Source: Allopusillimonas soli
GTDB taxonomy: Bacteria; Pseudomonadota; Gammaproteobacteria; Burkholderiales; Burkholderiaceae_B
Assembly: GCF_004153445.1 (NCBI RefSeq)
Contig: NZ_SDQC01000001.1
Span: forward strand, 434,001-498,000
Length of the DNA stretch: 64,000 nt
Direction: 5' to 3'
The notes beneath the pieces are model-generated. The model saw only the letters and a list, made by a program, of their open reading frames with translations, was not told where the DNA came from and did not search any database. The stretch's first letter is position 1; each line of letters starts with the position of its first letter. Of the stretch, positions 654 to 10,779 are shown piece by piece. The position numbers and the translations under genes are program-made.

Positions 654-2036
654 ATGTGGCGTTCCCTGCTGCCCCTGTCTCTGCATTCCCGCATGGTGCT
701 GCTCACGCTGGGCACCATTCTGCTGGTGCAGGCGGCCACTTTTGCGTCGGTGGCGTACTTCCGCAAGAAGTTCACCGAAGAAGTCGCCGTGGAACTCACG
801 GCGACCACGATCCGCACCCTGCGCGCATCGCTGGCCGAAATTCCGTCCCGTGAGCGCGCCGATTTCGTGCAGCGCGCATCGCAGAACGAATGGCGGCTCT
901 GGTCGCGCAATCTGCCCTCCAATGCCAGTGTCGAAGAGCACCGACCCAGGCACCGCCCCCAACGCCCGCCTCCGCAGGCCAACGACATACGCGACAATCT
1001 GCGCGCCTTCGTCAAGGCGCTGAATGCCAGGCTGAACGACGGCACCCGCGTGGCGCTCTCTCGCGGCCCCGAACCCCGACTGTATATTTCACTGCTGCCT
1101 GACATCGATGAGGACGAAGGCAACTATAACCGCGAGTGGCTTGTCATCCCGCTAGACCGGATTGCACCACCCGTGGCCACGCCGGTCATCGTGGTCTGGC
1201 TTACCGGCATGGGCCTGCTGCTCCTGCTTTCGGCCGCCTTCTCCTGGCATATCACACGGCCGCTAACCCGGCTGGCCCAGGCCGCGGACCGACTGGCCGC
1301 TGGGCAGCCAGAGCGGGTCACACCGTCGGGGCCGCGTGAAACGCGGGCCCTGGCCGAACGCTTCAACGCCATGCAGGACACGCTGGCTGAAACCAGCGCC
1401 GTGCAGCGCACCCTGCTGGCCGGGCTTCCCCACGATCTCAAGGGCCCGCTATCCAGAATGTGGCTGCGCATAGAAATGGTGGAGGATGCGCCGTTCCGAG
1501 AAGGCATGCGCAAAGACCTGCAGGACATGCAGCGCATGGTGGACCAGTTCATCGGTTTTGTGCGCGGGTCTGATCCCGGTTCCTACAATTTTGCCCGCAT
1601 GGATCTCAGGGCCTGGCTGAAGGAACAGGTCGATGCCTGGGAAAGCGTCGGCAGTCCGGTTTCCATGCTGCCGTGCGCCGTGCAACCCGTGTGGATACAA
1701 GGGGATCGTTCCGCGCTGGGGCGCCTGCTCGACAATCTGATCACCAATGCCCACAACCACGGAGCCCCGCCTGTGGAAGTGGGCCTGCGAACAAATGGAG
1801 ACATGGCCGTCATCGAAGTGTCCGACCACGGAGAGGGCATCAGCGCCCAACGTCGGGCGGAAGCCTTGCGGCCTTTTTCCCGCCTGGACGATGCGCGCAC
1901 ACGCACCGGCTCCGTGGGCCTGGGCCTTGCGCTGGCGGACGCCATCGTGCGCGCGCACCATGGCGAGATGGCGCTCGACGAAGCCGCCAGCGGCGGCCTC
2001 ATGGTCAGGATTTCGGTTCCCCGGCTCCCTGCTTGA
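654..2036 (+). CDS. EnvZ/RisS-like sensor histidine kinase
   Basis: Membrane sensor kinase, 460 residues, partner of the preceding regulator. TM1 lies near residues 13-33, followed by a periplasmic loop of roughly 140 residues, TM2 near 177-197, a HAMP linker, and an H-box with the phosphorylated His at about 260 in LPHDLKGPLSR. The ATPase domain shows the N-box LLDNLITNAHNHG, DHGEGIS and VGLGLALADAIV. The periplasmic loop carries a Pro/Arg-rich stretch (RPRHRPQRPPP) that may be flexible. The signal sensed cannot be read from sequence. The last 32 bp overlap the end of the convergent cydB-like gene. Confidence 0.92.
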   Translation: MWRSLLPLSLHSRMVLLTLGTILLVQAATFASVAYFRKKFTEEVAVELTATTIRTLRASLAEIPSRERADFVQRASQNEWRLWSRNLPSNASVEEHRPRHRPQRPPPQANDIRDNLRAFVKALNARLNDGTRVALSRGPEPRLYISLLPDIDEDEGNYNREWLVIPLDRIAPPVATPVIVVWLTGMGLLLLLSAAFSWHITRPLTRLAQAADRLAAGQPERVTPSGPRETRALAERFNAMQDTLAETSAVQRTLLAGLPHDLKGPLSRMWLRIEMVEDAPFREGMRKDLQDMQRMVDQFIGFVRGSDPGSYNFARMDLRAWLKEQVDAWESVGSPVSMLPCAVQPVWIQGDRSALGRLLDNLITNAHNHGAPPVEVGLRTNGDMAVIEVSDHGEGISAQRRAEALRPFSRLDDARTRTGSVGLGLALADAIVRAHHGEMALDEAASGGLMVRISVPRLPA

Positions 2037-3090
2037 CCGCGTGGCCAGGATAGGCGGGCGGCTCGGGACGCTTCGATAGGCCGAACATGCGCCAGTACAC
2101 GCGGATATTAAATACCAGGGCGGCCAGCAGCGCGATGACGGCACAGTACAACACCAGCGTCAGCGACGGCACCGAGGCCGCTGCGTCCCATATGGTAATG
2201 TTGTCGAGCACCAAAAAGGGAAAGAAACTGTAGCCCAGTCCGCCCAGCACAATCAGGAAGATGGCCAGGGTCATCGAAAAAGGAAGCGCCGTATTGCGGA
2301 AGCTGCTGTTGATCATTCGCTGCAGACACATTTCGGTGGAAACGAAACAGATCAGCAGACTCGCCCATAATATGGGCACGGCAAGCGGATGCTGGCCATC
2401 GCTCCATTTCAGGAAAACACCTGTGTTGGCGAACGCCAGCATGATGGTCAGGCCCACGGCGCCCGCAGCCATCCAGCGGATGGCGCGGCGGCCCCAGAAT
2501 ACAGCGCGCGCGCGCAGCGCCCCACCCTCGCGCATGATAAGCCAGCCTGCACCCAGCATGCAGTATGCGGCAAATACGCAAATCCCCATGAAAACCATGA
2601 ACCAGATGAAATCTGGCGCATCCTCCAGCGGCATAACGATTTGCCCCAGCAGCATCCCGTGAGCGAGCGCCGTGCATAGAGAACCCGCGGCAAATCCGCC
2701 CATCCAGCGGCTTTGCCGGGGCCGGGGGGCGCGCAGACGCATCTCGAAAGATATCGAGCGCAGCAGCACGCCCAAGGACAGCAGCGCCAAAGGCAGATAC
2801 AGCTGCCCCATGATGGCACCCACCGCCCCCGGAAAAGCGGCCACAAAAAGGCCCAGTCCAAGGAAAAGCCAGAACTCATTGGCATCGCGCCAAGGGCTTA
2901 GCAGTTCGAGCATGCGCCCCCTGAGCTGCAGGGGCGCAAACAGCACGAGACAGCCCACTCCGATATCAAAGCCGTCGAGCACCGCTGCCGCGATAATCAC
3001 CAGATAAAGCAGCCCCATGAGCACCAGCGGCATCCAGAATGCCGGATCGGTGGCCCCATAGCCCAGGGCCTGAGCCAACGCGTCGATCAT
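2005..3090 (-). CDS. cydB: Cytochrome bd-type oxidase subunit II (CydB family)
   Basis: Integral membrane protein of 361 residues with about eight or nine hydrophobic segments. It keeps family hallmarks: LDGFDIGVG in the first helix and PWRDANEFWLFLGLGLFVAAFPG after the second. In canonical oxidases CydB pairs with CydA and holds no catalytic heme of its own, apart from some heme d-containing variants. Its start overlaps the stop of the upstream cydA-like gene by 4 bp, which implies translational coupling. No CydX-like small ORF follows. Since its partner lacks all heme ligands, this pair is probably not a standard quinol oxidase; the symbol reflects family only. Confidence 0.9.
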   Translation of the reverse strand: MIDALAQALGYGATDPAFWMPLVLMGLLYLVIIAAAVLDGFDIGVGCLVLFAPLQLRGRMLELLSPWRDANEFWLFLGLGLFVAAFPGAVGAIMGQLYLPLALLSLGVLLRSISFEMRLRAPRPRQSRWMGGFAAGSLCTALAHGMLLGQIVMPLEDAPDFIWFMVFMGICVFAAYCMLGAGWLIMREGGALRARAVFWGRRAIRWMAAGAVGLTIMLAFANTGVFLKWSDGQHPLAVPILWASLLICFVSTEMCLQRMINSSFRNTALPFSMTLAIFLIVLGGLGYSFFPFLVLDNITIWDAAASVPSLTLVLYCAVIALLAALVFNIRVYWRMFGLSKRPEPPAYPGHAVKQGAGEPKS

Positions 3091-4430
3091 GCCCGCCCCC
3101 TATGACGTGCCACAGGTACGACCCCATAGCGGGCAATATGGCGCACCATGCGCAAGAACCCCGCAATGAACAGGCCATACAGAAGCAGGCTGGCAACCAG
3201 TACGGAGGCCAGTAGAGAGAAATCGGCGGATCCTGCGATTTCAGCCACGGTGATGGTGCCGGTGACCGCATACGGGTAGGCCGCCAGGAGAATGTAGGCA
3301 AGGCCGGCCAATATCAATATCCAGCTCATAAATGACGTGGCGCCAAGCACATGCCGCCATGCGCGGGACAGGACACCCGGATCGTAGGCCGACCGATGGA
3401 TGCGCACCAGCGTGACGCCCGCGACCAGCGCCAGCGCCAGTCCCGTCAGGACGGCGGCGCGAAAGAACCAGAATGTGGCGGCGACCGGAGGGGCCATGCC
3501 TGAAAATTGGTCCAGCCCCCGAGGCCTGCCGTCATCGTCACGTGCCAGCCAGGGCTTGCCGGCCTCGGGCAGCGACCAGGCTGCGCGATTCCGGGCCGAG
3601 CCGGCGTCGGGCCAGCCGAAGAGCACCATATCGGGGGCGTGACCGCTGTGCCAGTACCCGGACACCGCCGCGGCCTTGGCAGGCAAATAGCGGGCAGCCA
3701 CCAGACCATCGCCGGCGGCGCAGAGGCCTTGCAGCACAATGCAGGCACAGGCGACACGCAAGGCCATACGGAACGCGAGCCGCTCGCTGGGCTCGGAGGG
3801 CCTGCGCAGGGACTGCACGGCCACGACGGCAATGACCAGGAAGGCGGCGCACAGCAGGCTGCCCAGGAGATAGAGCCCCGCGTACCACGGAAAAGCGGGG
3901 TTGAAAACCACCTGCAGCCAGTTTTCGACCTGATACCGGCCTTCGGTGAACTGCGCCCCTGCCGGGATGTGCATCCAGGAAACCAGCACGACCAGCCACA
4001 GCACCATCAGGGTGGAACCCACGGCCACCAGGACCACGACAGCCGCGTGTGCACGGGACGACAGCCGTCTTTCACCGAAGAGCATTGCGCCCAGAAAACA
4101 GGTCTTGAACACATATACCGTGGCCAGGCCAGCGGCCAGGAGCGGGCCGGCCACATCGCCGATCTTGCCCAGCAGGCCGGGCCACAGGCTGCCCAGTTGC
4201 ACCATGACCGGTATGCTCGCGGCGAACGCAACGAATGAAGCCAAGGCGAACACCCGCACCCAAAACCGGTAGGCGCCCATCCAGGGCGAAACCGGCGAGG
4301 CCAGCGAACGGACGCGCATGTAGGCCAGCATCCAAGCCAGACCCAGCTCGAGAGCAAGGAACAGCAGCATGAAAGCGAGGCTGGCGAAGAACTGGATCTG
4401 CGATAACCACAAGGTCGACGATTGCGTCAT
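3087..4430 (-). CDS. cydA: Divergent CydA-family protein lacking heme ligands
   Basis: Polytopic membrane protein of 447 residues, alignable by eye to the cyanide-insensitive (CioA) branch of cytochrome bd subunit I. Landmarks are WLSQIQF near residue 8, NPAFPWY near 177, SWMHIPAGAQF near 151 and KAAAVSGYW near 252. Every canonical ligand or proton-path residue is changed: the heme d His19 aligns with Met21, heme b558 ligands His186 and Met393 with Leu186 and Ala326, heme b595 Glu445 with Leu381, and Glu99 and Glu107 with Gly101 and Lys109. The GRQPW motif reads AAYPY. The quinol-loop Lys252 is kept but Glu257 is Ser. Oxygen reduction by the normal mechanism is unlikely; the real role is unknown. 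Coupled to the CydB-like gene by a 4-bp overlap. Confidence 0.85.
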   Translation of the reverse strand: MTQSSTLWLSQIQFFASLAFMLLFLALELGLAWMLAYMRVRSLASPVSPWMGAYRFWVRVFALASFVAFAASIPVMVQLGSLWPGLLGKIGDVAGPLLAAGLATVYVFKTCFLGAMLFGERRLSSRAHAAVVVLVAVGSTLMVLWLVVLVSWMHIPAGAQFTEGRYQVENWLQVVFNPAFPWYAGLYLLGSLLCAAFLVIAVVAVQSLRRPSEPSERLAFRMALRVACACIVLQGLCAAGDGLVAARYLPAKAAAVSGYWHSGHAPDMVLFGWPDAGSARNRAAWSLPEAGKPWLARDDDGRPRGLDQFSGMAPPVAATFWFFRAAVLTGLALALVAGVTLVRIHRSAYDPGVLSRAWRHVLGATSFMSWILILAGLAYILLAAYPYAVTGTITVAEIAGSADFSLLASVLVASLLLYGLFIAGFLRMVRHIARYGVVPVARHRGRA

Positions 4431-4537
4431 GGCCGCTAGTTTAGAGCCAGAAGCGGGTTTGTAAAGTCATACGACGGGCAAAAGTTCGCGAACGTGGCAA
4501 AATGTTTACTTTGCTTGTTTTCGCGTTTCCACCCAGA

Positions 4538-6304
4538 ATGACATCTGCGCCCACCCCACCCCCCGCCTCGAATTTCCTGCGCACCATTATCGACAGCGAC
4601 CTGGCGCAGGGCCGCTACGCCGGCAAGCGCTGGGCCGGCAAACCCGGTCCGGCGGACGTCCATGCCGATGCGCCGGCCGATACGGCCCGCATCCGCACCC
4701 GGTTTCCGCCCGAACCCAACGGCTATCTGCACATCGGCCACGCAAAGAGTATTTGCCTGAATTTCGGCCTGGCTCAGGACTACGGCGGCGCATGCCATCT
4801 GCGCTTTGACGACACCAACCCGGAGAAAGAAGAGGACGAATACGTCCGCGCCATCATAGAGATGGTTCGCTGGTTGGGCTTCGACTGGCGCTTCAATGGC
4901 GAAGACAATTGCTACTTCGCCAGCGACTATTTCGATTTCATGTATGGCTTTGCCGAGGCGCTGGTCCAGGCCGGCCATGCCTACGTCGACGAGCAAAGTC
5001 CCGAGGAAATGCGCGCCAGCCGTGGCACGCTCACGGAGAAGGGTGTCAATTCCTCCTGGCGCAGCCGCCCAGCGGAAGAATCCCTGCTGCGGCTGCGCGA
5101 GATGCGTGATGGCAAGCATCCGGATGGCAGCATGGCCCTGCGCGCACGCATCGACATGGGCTCGCCCAATATCAACCTGCGCGATCCCGTGCTGTACCGC
5201 ATCCGCCATACACCGCACCATCGCACAGGATCCACCTGGTGCATTTATCCCATGTACGCGTGGGCGCATCCAGTGGAGGATGCCCTGGAGGGCATCACCC
5301 ACAGCATCTGCACCCTCGAATTCGAGGATCAGCGGCCCTTCTACGACTGGATACTGGAACGGCTCGCCGAGCTTGGACAACTGGCCCGTCCCCTGCCACA
5401 CCAGCATGAGTTCGCCCGCCTGAATCTCAGCTATGTTGTCACCAGCAAGCGAAAACTGCTGCAACTGGTGCGCGAAGGCCGCGTCAGCGGCTGGGATGAT
5501 CCGCGCATGCCCACGCTCGCCGGCCTGCGGCGGCGCGGATATACGCCCTCCGCCATCCGGCTGTTTTGCGAGAGGCTGGGCGTTTCCAAGGCCGACTCCC
5601 GCATCGACTACAGCATCCTCGAACAGGCACTGCGCGACGATCTGGATCCCGTGGCGCCCCGCGCTGTTGCGGTGCTGGATCCGCTCAAGCTGGTACTCAC
5701 GAACTACCCCGAGGGGCAAACCGAGCTGTGCCATGCGCCCCGTAACCCACATGCACCGGAAGCCGGTTCGCGCGAGTTTCCGCTTTCGCGCGAGCTCTGG
5801 ATAGAACGCGACGACTTCCGCGAGGACCCGCCCAAAAAATATTTCCGCCTGTTCCCGGGCAACACCGTCCGGCTCAAATACGGCTACATCGTGCGCTGCA
5901 CCGGCTTCGTCAAGGATGACAGCGGCCAGGTCACGGAGGTTCATGCCGAATACCTGCCGGACACCAAGAGCGGGACACCGGGCGCCGATTCGGTCAAAGT
6001 CAAGGGCAATATTACCTGGGTCAGCGCGGCGCATGCGGTGCCTGCGGAAGTCCGCTTGTACGACCGCCTGTTCAACGATGCCCATCCCGATGGCGCGGGC
6101 AAGGATTTCCTCGACGCGCTCAATCCCGATTCCTGCCATGTACGACAAGGCTGGCTGGAGCCGGGCACCCGCGCCGAGCCGGAAACCGTCTGGCAATTCG
6201 AGCGCCTGGGCTATTTCGTGGCCGACCGCGAACTCTCTACGCCGGAGAAGCCGATCATCAATCGCGCCATCACGCTCAAAGACTCCTGGGCGCACGTCAA
6301 ATAA
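4538..6304 (+). CDS. glnS: Glutaminyl-tRNA synthetase
   Basis: Charges tRNA-Gln with glutamine in the cytoplasm. The class I signature HIGH is at residues 65-68 in [11 protein letters not shown], and the KMSKS-equivalent loop reads TSKRK at about 302-306 (E. coli has MSKRK). The beta-barrel anticodon-binding region follows and ends with the family sequence [11 protein letters not shown] chose the ATG at 4538 (588 aa); an in-frame ATG at 4502 would add 12 hydrophobic residues unlike the family. minC begins 13 bp after the stop, so glnS probably heads a glnS-minCDE transcript. The 107 bp to the divergent cydA-like gene must hold both promoters, which I could not define. Confidence 0.96.
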
Positions 6305-8514: not shown

Positions 8515-10779
8515 TTGTCCTCCTCTTCTCTGCCGTCGCGCACACTGCTGGGGTCTTCCCTGGCGCTGGCGCTGGCAACGCCTGCCGCCTTTCTGCCTGC
8601 CGCCGTTCAAGCTCAAACAGCCGCTAACCCGCCCTCTCCCGCCACACTGAGCCCAGTTCGAGTTCAAGGCAATGCGGAGCACGATTATCAGGTGCAGGAG
8701 GCGTCTCAAGCCAAATTCACGGCACCGCTCGTTGATACGCCCAAGTCCGTTCAGATCATCCCACAGGCCGTTATGCAGGATACCGCCGCAACCTCCCTGG
8801 AGGACGTGCTGCGCAATGCGCCGGGCATCACATTCGGCGCGGGTGAAGGTGGCCAGCCGCTGGCCGATCGGCCATTCATACGCGGCGCCTCATCGGCCAG
8901 CAATATTTTCGTCGACGGTATTCGTGATTCGGGCGGCCAGACACGCGACATGTTCGATGTGGAAAACGTCGAGATCGTGCGCGGCGCCGACTCGGCGCTG
9001 GGCGGACGGGGCACAGGCGGAGGCAGCATCAACCTGAGCACCAAGCATGCGCACCTTCGCGATGCCGCCAGCGCGACCCTGGGCATCGGCACCGACCGCT
9101 ACTTGCGCGCCACCGCCGACGGCAACTGGAAAATGAGCGATACCTCGGCCTTTCGCCTGAATGTGATGGGCGCGCGCGGCGACTTCCCTGGGCGCGACGA
9201 AGTCGACTACAAGAACTTCGGCATTGCCCCCACGCTCTCCTTCGGCCAGGGCACGGACACCCGCGTGTTCGTCAGCTACTATCACTATCAGACGGATGGC
9301 ATGTCGGACTATGGCGTGCCTGTCATCAGGGAAAACGCGAACCGCGACTTCCCTTACCAGACTGACACCGGCATACTGGATGTGGACCGCGACACCTTCT
9401 ACGGCGTTCTGGATCGGGATTATCGCAAGACCCAGGCCGACATCGGCACCATCGAACTGGAACACGACCTTGCCGACAATCTCATGCTGCGTAATGCAAC
9501 ACGCTACGGCGAGACATTGAACGACTATGTGGTGACCAACCCCGGCGACGGCTCCGTGGCCTTTGACGCACCCACCAACCAATATTGGCTGCTGCGCGGC
9601 ACGAAATCGCGCTGGCAACGCAGCACCATGCTTGCCAACGTAACCGAGTTGTCCGGGAAGCTGGAGACCGGCAGCCTGAAGCACAGCTTCACGGCAGGCA
9701 TCGAGCTGTCGCGCGAAACCAACAAGAACGCCAGCTATAAAGTCAATACCATAACCGGGTCGGCATGCCCCTCGGTCTTTGCCGGCAAGCTCGACTGCAC
9801 GCCGCTGTACAACCCCAATCCCAGCGATCCCTGGACCGGATCACTGGAAAAGGGGCCACTGAGCCAGGATACGACATCCACCACCAAGGCAGCCTATCTG
9901 TTTGACAGCATCACCCTGTCGCCGCAATTCCAGCTCAACGCAGGCGTGCGGGTGGATCACTACACCATTTCGGGGGACTACGTCTCACGAGGCGCCTCGG
10001 GACCGCAATCCACCGACAGATCATGGACCATGTACAACTACCAGTTGGGACTGGTCTACAAGCCGGCGCCCAATGGCAGCGTCTATCTGAGCTACGCCAC
10101 GGCTTCCACGCCCCCCAGCATGAGCGGCGGCGACCAGGACAGCCTGTCCGCAGATACCAGCGTGCTGCGGCCTGAAAAGAGCCGGACACTGGAACTGGGC
10201 ACAAAATGGAATGTACTGAATGAACGCCTTAGCCTGACGGCAGCCCTGTTCCAGAACGAGCGGCGCGACGCCCAGATCGAGGTTGAGCCTGATGTGTTCG
10301 CCCAGGCAGGCGAGACGCGGGTGCGGGGCTTTGAGCTGGGTGTCGCAGGCCAGATCACCCCCAAGTGGGGTGTATACGGCGGCTATGCCTACATGGACAG
10401 CGAACTCGTGCATGGCGCCTATGACAGCGTCAATGAGGGCGATCCGTTGGCCAACACGCCCAAGCACAGTTTCAGCCTGTGGAGCACTTATCGTGTCCTC
10501 CCTCAGTTCACCGTGGGCGCAGGCGCCTACTATGTGGGCAAGATGTACGGCGGCTCCGGCACAACGGGATCGGCAGGCGGCGGCGCGAATGGCACCTATA
10601 TACCCTCGCACTGGCGCTTCGACGCCATGGCGGCCTACAGGGTCAGCAAGGCCCTGAGCCTGCAGCTCAATGCGCTTAACCTGACCGACAGGGTTTACTA
10701 TGCGCATAATAACGGCAATCACCATGCGGATTTCGGCCCGGGCCGGCAGTTCATCCTCAGCGCCAGCTTGAGCTACTGA
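8515..10779 (+). CDS. TonB-dependent siderophore receptor (Fiu-like)
   Basis: Outer-membrane transporter for ferric siderophores, 754 residues. A signal peptide ends near AVQAQT (about residue 34). A plug domain follows ([73 protein letters not shown]), then a 22-strand barrel ending in the aromatic C-terminus SASLSY. The plug sequence resembles the catecholate receptor Fiu. The start is TTG at 8515 with TAGGGA upstream; no ATG precedes the signal peptide. Co-location with a PiuC dioxygenase is also seen beside Fiu in enterobacteria, which supports a catecholate ligand without proving it. Confidence 0.93.

Follow-up and report, generated by a model that had tools for sequence, protein, structure and literature searches.

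A 64,000-nucleotide stretch of Allopusillimonas soli DNA (assembly GCF_004153445.1, contig NZ_SDQC01000001.1, positions 434,001 to 498,000; hereafter the window) carries two overlapping genes for a CydA-like and a CydB-like protein, and the CydA-like protein has lost all the heme ligands of cytochrome bd. We consider it probable that this pair is a pseudo-oxidase, that is, a CydA-CydB membrane heterodimer descended from a CioAB-type cytochrome bd, whose heme sites were lost stepwise and which has been retained for a job other than the reduction of O2. The residues described below strongly support the view that the pair is not a normal cytochrome bd, and from the same residues we infer that the complex would carry no heme and could not reduce O2. 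A non-oxidase role would follow from the loss of the ligands taken together with the maintenance of the pair. Both proteins belong to the cytochrome bd superfamily by essentially full-length matches above the cut-offs, the CydA-like protein to PF01654 (275.1 bits, profile positions 1-417 of 418) and the CydB-like protein to PF02322 (174.6 bits, positions 1-302 of 302), and all NCBIfam matches of the pair fell below the curated cut-offs. The CydA-like reading frame in the window is open. The same genome has one further CydA and one further CydB, adjoining each other on another contig, and this second CydA has all ligands present.

Residues were brought into register by a joint MAFFT alignment with E. 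coli CydA and by a separate HHalign profile-profile alignment of a clade profile against a canonical profile, and the two methods gave an identical register at all heme and proton positions. The original prediction, made from the sequence of the window, had named six substitutions (His19 to Met21, Glu99 to Gly101, Glu107 to Lys109, His186 to Leu186, Met393 to Ala326 and Glu445 to Leu381), and all six were right in both alignments. The window protein therefore has none of the axial ligands His19, His186, Met393 and Glu445 of a catalytic cytochrome bd, nor Glu99 and Glu107 of the O2/proton site. The numbers His19 and Glu445 are those that we take to apply to the ligands of E. coli CydA. PMC5322542 lists His186, Met393 and Glu99 among the ligand positions, and PMC8951039 gives the residue types of the remaining heme ligands. 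The seven residues flanking each of the four ligand positions on both sides contain no His or Glu, apart from Glu28, which lies seven residues past Met21. A shifted register that hides the ligands, which had been named beforehand as an observation that would refute the original prediction, was looked at by HHalign and excluded, with no hidden His or Glu ligand.

The same losses were found throughout a clade of related proteins, for which we used 86 distinct close members after removal of exact duplicates; three divergent members (L078, L101 and L124) are described separately. Among the 85 members in which all four ligand columns were filled, 75 had replaced all four ligands and 10 had replaced three, the sole ligand retained in those 10 being the Met at the Met393 position. 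His19, His186 and Glu445 were kept in 0 of 86 members, as were Glu99 and Glu107. The replacement of Glu107 (Lys109 in the window protein) is itself conserved, with Lys in 83 and Arg in 3 of the 86, and the His19 position was occupied by Leu in 41 and Met in 39 members (80 of 86 together). A set of 12 canonical proteins shares 72 invariant columns; none of the 6 heme and proton columns among them was retained in at least 80% of the clade, compared to 37 of the 66 others (Fisher p = 0.010), and the loss of ligands thus exceeds chance. At the quinol site, Arg391 was kept in all 86 members and the Lys252 position held Lys in 69 and Arg in 16 of them, while Glu257 was kept in 0 of 86. On the old proton path, Ser140 was kept in 21 of 86. 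Three His or Cys columns were conserved in most members, Cys111 (82/86), His128 (84/86) and His431 (75/86), and no other was found among the columns listed at 30% or more.

In a 56-row tree the clade was monophyletic with 100/100 support, and its nearest relatives were CioA-type proteins; this tree was rooted at the midpoint, its bootstrap was not quite settled, and its rows include no CydA' or OR-N sequence. Among the 62 matches found beyond the family, the 24 loci with the highest scores, from other families of the order, were aligned, and all 24 keep every ligand. The same applies to all 11 canonical loci of the main alignment, five CioA-type loci from inside the family included, and to all 10 comparators (L156-L165) used for the selection analysis. 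The three divergent members lie outside the branch formed by the other 31 clade rows (support 91/90), with L124 and L101 on long branches of unsure placement. The basal L078 keeps His19, Met393, Trp441, Glu445 and Arg448 and has lost Glu99, Glu107 (replaced by Lys), His186 and Glu257; a single one of the four ligands is left in L101 (His19) and in L124 (Glu445). The residues retained in these three members, with their position in the tree, suggest that His186 and the catalytic glutamates were lost first and that the other ligands were lost later, more than once. L124 (4992-6479), with about 33% identity and its Glu445, is the most divergent member, and its CydB has substitutions at Asp39, Asp69 and Asn71, motif residues retained by most of the other members; this member may have changed function a second time or be at the start of decay.

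The pair is under purifying selection. In 46 same-genus pairs for each gene, the median ratio of nonsynonymous to synonymous substitution rates (dN/dS) was 0.121 for the CydA-like gene, 0.052 for the CydB-like gene and 0.061 for glnS, compared to 0.024-0.094 in 13 canonical CydA-type pairs; these were chosen pairs filtered on identity and synonymous rate, and pairs within a genus are not independent. A direct comparison within genus g6 gave 0.098-0.126 for the CydA-like gene and 0.057-0.094 for canonical CydA. The CydA-like protein is thus constrained, though less than canonical CydA. The neutral evolution expected of a pseudogene was not observed in these gene pairs, nor was a disrupted frame in the window. 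In addition, constraint is inverted relative to CioAB, with CydB more conserved than CydA: among 81 members the mean identity was 0.609 for the CydB-like and 0.503 for the CydA-like protein, with the former higher in 3108 of 3240 pairs, whereas ten CioAB pairs showed the reverse (0.562 for CydB and 0.621 for CydA, CydB higher in 4 of 45). The original prediction that the pair is maintained and not decaying is borne out by the monophyly of the clade, its fixed synteny, the ATGA overlap of the two genes and the low dN/dS, and the tree and selection check that it had proposed returned a conserved clade with values far below 1.

Close matches (E <= 2e-83) were found in 91 of 151 genomes and 31 of 43 genera of the window's family, which is Alcaligenaceae-like; this count includes the genomes of L078 and L101 and one gene split over two contigs, it omits the genome of L124 along with a few clade relatives whose matches were weaker or partial, and loci were fetched and read from part of the 91 genomes. 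Outside the family, none of 300 genomes of the order gave a protein scoring like the clade (641-681 bits within the family, at most 437 bits for the 62 others listed at E <= 1e-90), and in 398 genomes of the phylum the sole match at E <= 1e-128 besides that of the window was locus L132 of G407, which keeps all ligands. Both sets are samples, residues were read in the 24 best outside loci, and a strongly divergent member could have fallen below the thresholds. Within the family the pair is held at one genomic place, as vertical inheritance predicts, because glnS lies divergently within 400 bp upstream in all 76 distinct clade loci with enough flank (L078, L101 and L124 included; L054 had too little flank to be counted) and minD lies in the stretch of 75 of these 76. 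In comparison, glnS was absent from all 10 canonical loci for which long flanks were available. The CydB start lies 3 bases before the CydA end (offset -3, ATGA) in 105 of 113 clade rows, near-duplicate loci included, and the same arrangement in the window agrees with the translational coupling that had been proposed for the two genes. No FNR-like box was found at up to 1 mismatch in 89 upstream stretches of 160 bp. A CydX-like small subunit (PF08173) had no match in 5 of 6 genomes searched, that of the window among them, and the sole match, in G008, adjoins a canonical bd locus.

A canonical cytochrome bd is not needed for the presence of the pair, because in three genomes listed as 99% complete (G006, G042 and G127) the clade protein is the sole PF01654 match. 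These genomes have 4-7 matches each to PF00115, a family that may include nitric oxide reductases, and none of them has a CydD above the curated cut-off; G052 and the window's genome also fell short of it (395 against 435 bits in the latter). In the window's genome, outside the window, two tandem CydD-profile matches of 395 and 339 bits (C10:601538-605032) lie in open frames that are both given as 1225 aa and may encode a CydDC-like fusion transporter.

The original prediction that the partner keeps the usual CydB motifs was broadly right, with the exception of changes specific to the clade: Arg59, Arg68, Arg205, Asn222, Trp242 and Glu253 of CydB are nearly fixed in the clade and are not the canonical majority, and Arg258 and Asp296 are likewise nearly fixed but present in about 3 of 10 canonical proteins. 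Glu253 lies inside a helix predicted by hydropathy. In E. coli, the H-channel or proton wire is described as consisting of CydA Lys53, Lys57 and Glu107 and CydB Asp105 and Asp58, with Glu74 also listed, and these residues lie in a path from the cytoplasm (PMC13189123). The equivalents in the window pair are Arg55, Arg59 and Lys109 of CydA and Glu116 and Asp69 of CydB, respectively; Glu74 is already Ser or Ala in the aligned canonical relatives. Polar residues have been kept at the subunit interface, though shifted to fixed charges, but are gone near the hemes.

We propose that the pair descended from a CioAB-type cytochrome bd early in the bacterial family, that the heme sites would have been lost step by step, and that the working part may have moved to CydB and the CydA-CydB interface. 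The proton wire would have become a cluster of fixed charges (CydA Arg55, Arg59 and Lys109; CydB Asp69 and Glu116, with Arg68 and Arg120), probably a site of salt bridges and ligand binding that would not supply protons. The mechanism that we prefer, and hold loosely, is a non-redox, CydB-centred membrane module that would bind quinone or lipid and so stabilise or regulate another respiratory or envelope component. The quinone-binding or regulatory role suggested by the original prediction is a possible one, with Lys252 and Arg391 of the quinol site largely kept but Glu257 lost.

Among known systems, CioAB-type bd oxidases (PF01654 with PF02322) share with the pair the two-gene layout, the protein families and the kept structural motifs, with about 30-36% identity to the CydA-like protein. 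They differ in that the window clade is without the axial ligands and without Glu99, Glu107, Glu257 and Arg448, in that its CydB is more conserved than its CydA, and in that canonical loci lie elsewhere, away from the fixed glnS locus of the clade. CydAA' (OR-N) of archaea and nitrite oxidisers resembles the pair as a set of superfamily members differing in heme- and quinol-site content (PMC10839748), but its proposed pairing is of two CydA-type subunits without CydB, whereas the partner here is a PF02322 CydB. The comparison with archaeal CydA' raised in the original prediction is thus a poor fit, also given that the clade stands beside CioA-type proteins in the tree.

Four clade members (L048, L052, L055 and L059) of genus g15, which we take to be Bordetella, have 447 codons each, and G140, a genome of this presumed genus, has three PF01654 loci, one of them in the clade. 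The published deletion of B. bronchiseptica cydAB3 (BB4012-4011; BP3224-3225 in B. pertussis) spans 2373 bp (PMC11257404), which, assuming an ATGA overlap of the genes, would leave about 446-447 codons for cydA3. Since this length fits the g15 members and one PF01654 locus of G140 lies in the clade, cydAB3 is very probably the same orthologous pair. We give about even odds to the wider proposal that the clade is a heme-free, CydB-keeping branch of bd, an old family-wide pseudo-oxidase that would include Bordetella CydAB3, in which the working subunit would have changed from CydA to CydB and the proton wire to a buried charged site for binding or gating. cydAB3 is listed as a high-affinity bd oxidase by predicted homology, and a strain living on it alone could not be made (PMC11257404). 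Elsewhere bp3224-3225 is called a second bd oxidase that is not expressed in the laboratory (PMC12914433), and BP3224 is paired with BB4011, with a C/G homopolymer tract of 9 in the former and 6 in the latter (PMC1891110). A strain with five loci deleted, cyd3 among them, grew poorly in 5% CO2 (PMC11257404), and cyd3 may thus have a role in such growth, a lead pointing opposite to the missing phenotype of the single deletion described below.

Several observations weigh against a retained pseudo-oxidase. The CydA-like protein evolves faster than canonical CydA, and part of its change may be relaxed constraint; the nearest neighbours (glnS, the min genes and a two-component pair) show no evident link to a ligand or partner; and the Met found at the His19 position in 39 members could in principle ligate heme. 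In PMC11257404, deletion of cydAB3 alone gave no growth phenotype in standard culture, no single oxidase, cydAB3 included, was needed for Bordetella persistence in mice, and cydAB3 transcripts were detectable but low. According to the same article, half of the 14 strains compared in the B. pertussis complex have a cydB3 broken by a frameshift or a premature stop. These disruptions, along with the lost catalytic residues, the faster evolution and an internal TAG in one copy (G119), would fit a decaying, functionless relic. We regard that reading as highly improbable: dN/dS is far below 1 and that of the CydB-like gene is at the level of glnS, no clade row listed at E <= 2e-83 has an internal stop, the overlap and synteny are kept, and the new residue Lys109 is nearly fixed.

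The Met at the His19 position also bears on the reading that heme is still bound through other residues, such as Met21, Cys111 or His128, in a redox protein or weak oxidase. The frequency of Cys111 and His128, the largely kept Arg391 and Lys252 of the quinol site and the ligands left in the basal L078 are consistent with it. However, the His19 position is most often Leu, His128 is common to canonical enzymes, where it is not among the named heme ligands, and His431 is the only further His or Cys column conserved in most of the clade, so that we think this reading very unlikely. A channel or transporter, in which a proton, an anion or a small molecule would cross the membrane by the Arg/Lys-rich former proton path with no redox chemistry involved, seems quite unlikely to us: near-invariant Lys109 lies inside a helix predicted by hydropathy, and Arg55, Arg59, the CydB residues Asp69 and Glu116, the nearly fixed CydB Arg68, Arg205 and Glu253 and the cytoplasmic path of the E. 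coli counterparts would suit such a function, but the changes from Lys to Arg and from Glu to Lys would fix charges and not pass protons, and co-transcription with the ClcA-like gene read from sequence near some loci had no support in this analysis. Pseudo-enzymes often regulate their relatives, and the CydA-like protein might regulate a canonical terminal oxidase or assist in its assembly, either by entering mixed complexes with CydAB or by helping to build a heme-copper oxidase. The canonical CydA in the window's genome and the several PF00115 matches in each of the 6 genomes searched are compatible with this role; it is nevertheless unlikely in our judgement, as three genomes have the pair and no other PF01654 match, and the recurrent neighbours that were read include neither an oxidase nor an assembly gene.

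A pair matching PF01654 and PF02322 invites annotation as a high-affinity oxidase, as happened to Bordetella cydAB3 on predicted homology, and in the window's family one of the copies would be misread in this way. If the pseudo-oxidase reading is true, a heme-free CydAB would show that the fold, CydB especially, has a function apart from catalysis, and Bordetella CydAB3, now counted as a respiratory oxidase, would be reassigned to the heme-free branch. The basal members with some ligands left make the order of loss testable. None of the literature matches listed describes such a ligand-free CydAB family, and the main classification paper (Murali 2021), outside this coverage, could mention it.

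Table 1. Positions in the window of the gene pair, the divergent neighbouring gene and the codons of the CydA-like gene at catalytic positions.
Feature	Position	Strand	Remarks
CydA-like subunit without heme ligands	3087..4430	minus	447 aa; PF01654, 275 bits, and alignments
CydB-like partner	2005..3090	minus	361 aa; more conserved subunit of the pair; PF02322, 174.6 bits
ATGA stop/start overlap of the CydA-like and CydB-like genes	3087..3090	minus	4 nt; sign of translational coupling
Met21 codon	4368..4370	minus	position of E. coli His19 (heme ligand)
Gly101 codon	4128..4130	minus	position of E. coli Glu99
Lys109 codon	4104..4106	minus	position of E. coli Glu107 (proton donor)
Leu186 codon	3873..3875	minus	position of E. 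coli His186 (heme b558 ligand)
Arg324 codon	3459..3461	minus	position of E. coli Arg391
Ala326 codon	3453..3455	minus	position of E. coli Met393 (heme b558 ligand)
Leu381 codon	3288..3290	minus	position of E. coli Glu445 (heme b595 ligand)
glnS (glutaminyl-tRNA synthetase; named from sequence)	4502..6304	plus	divergent neighbour and synteny marker, outside the complex; start codon not settled

Downstream of the pair and convergent with it, positions 6-2036 of the window encode an OmpR-type response regulator and a HAMP sensor kinase, and this kinase was found convergent downstream of the pair in 47 of 76 clade loci. On reading its translation, the segment at 8515-10779, which adjoins minE, resembles a TonB-dependent siderophore receptor.
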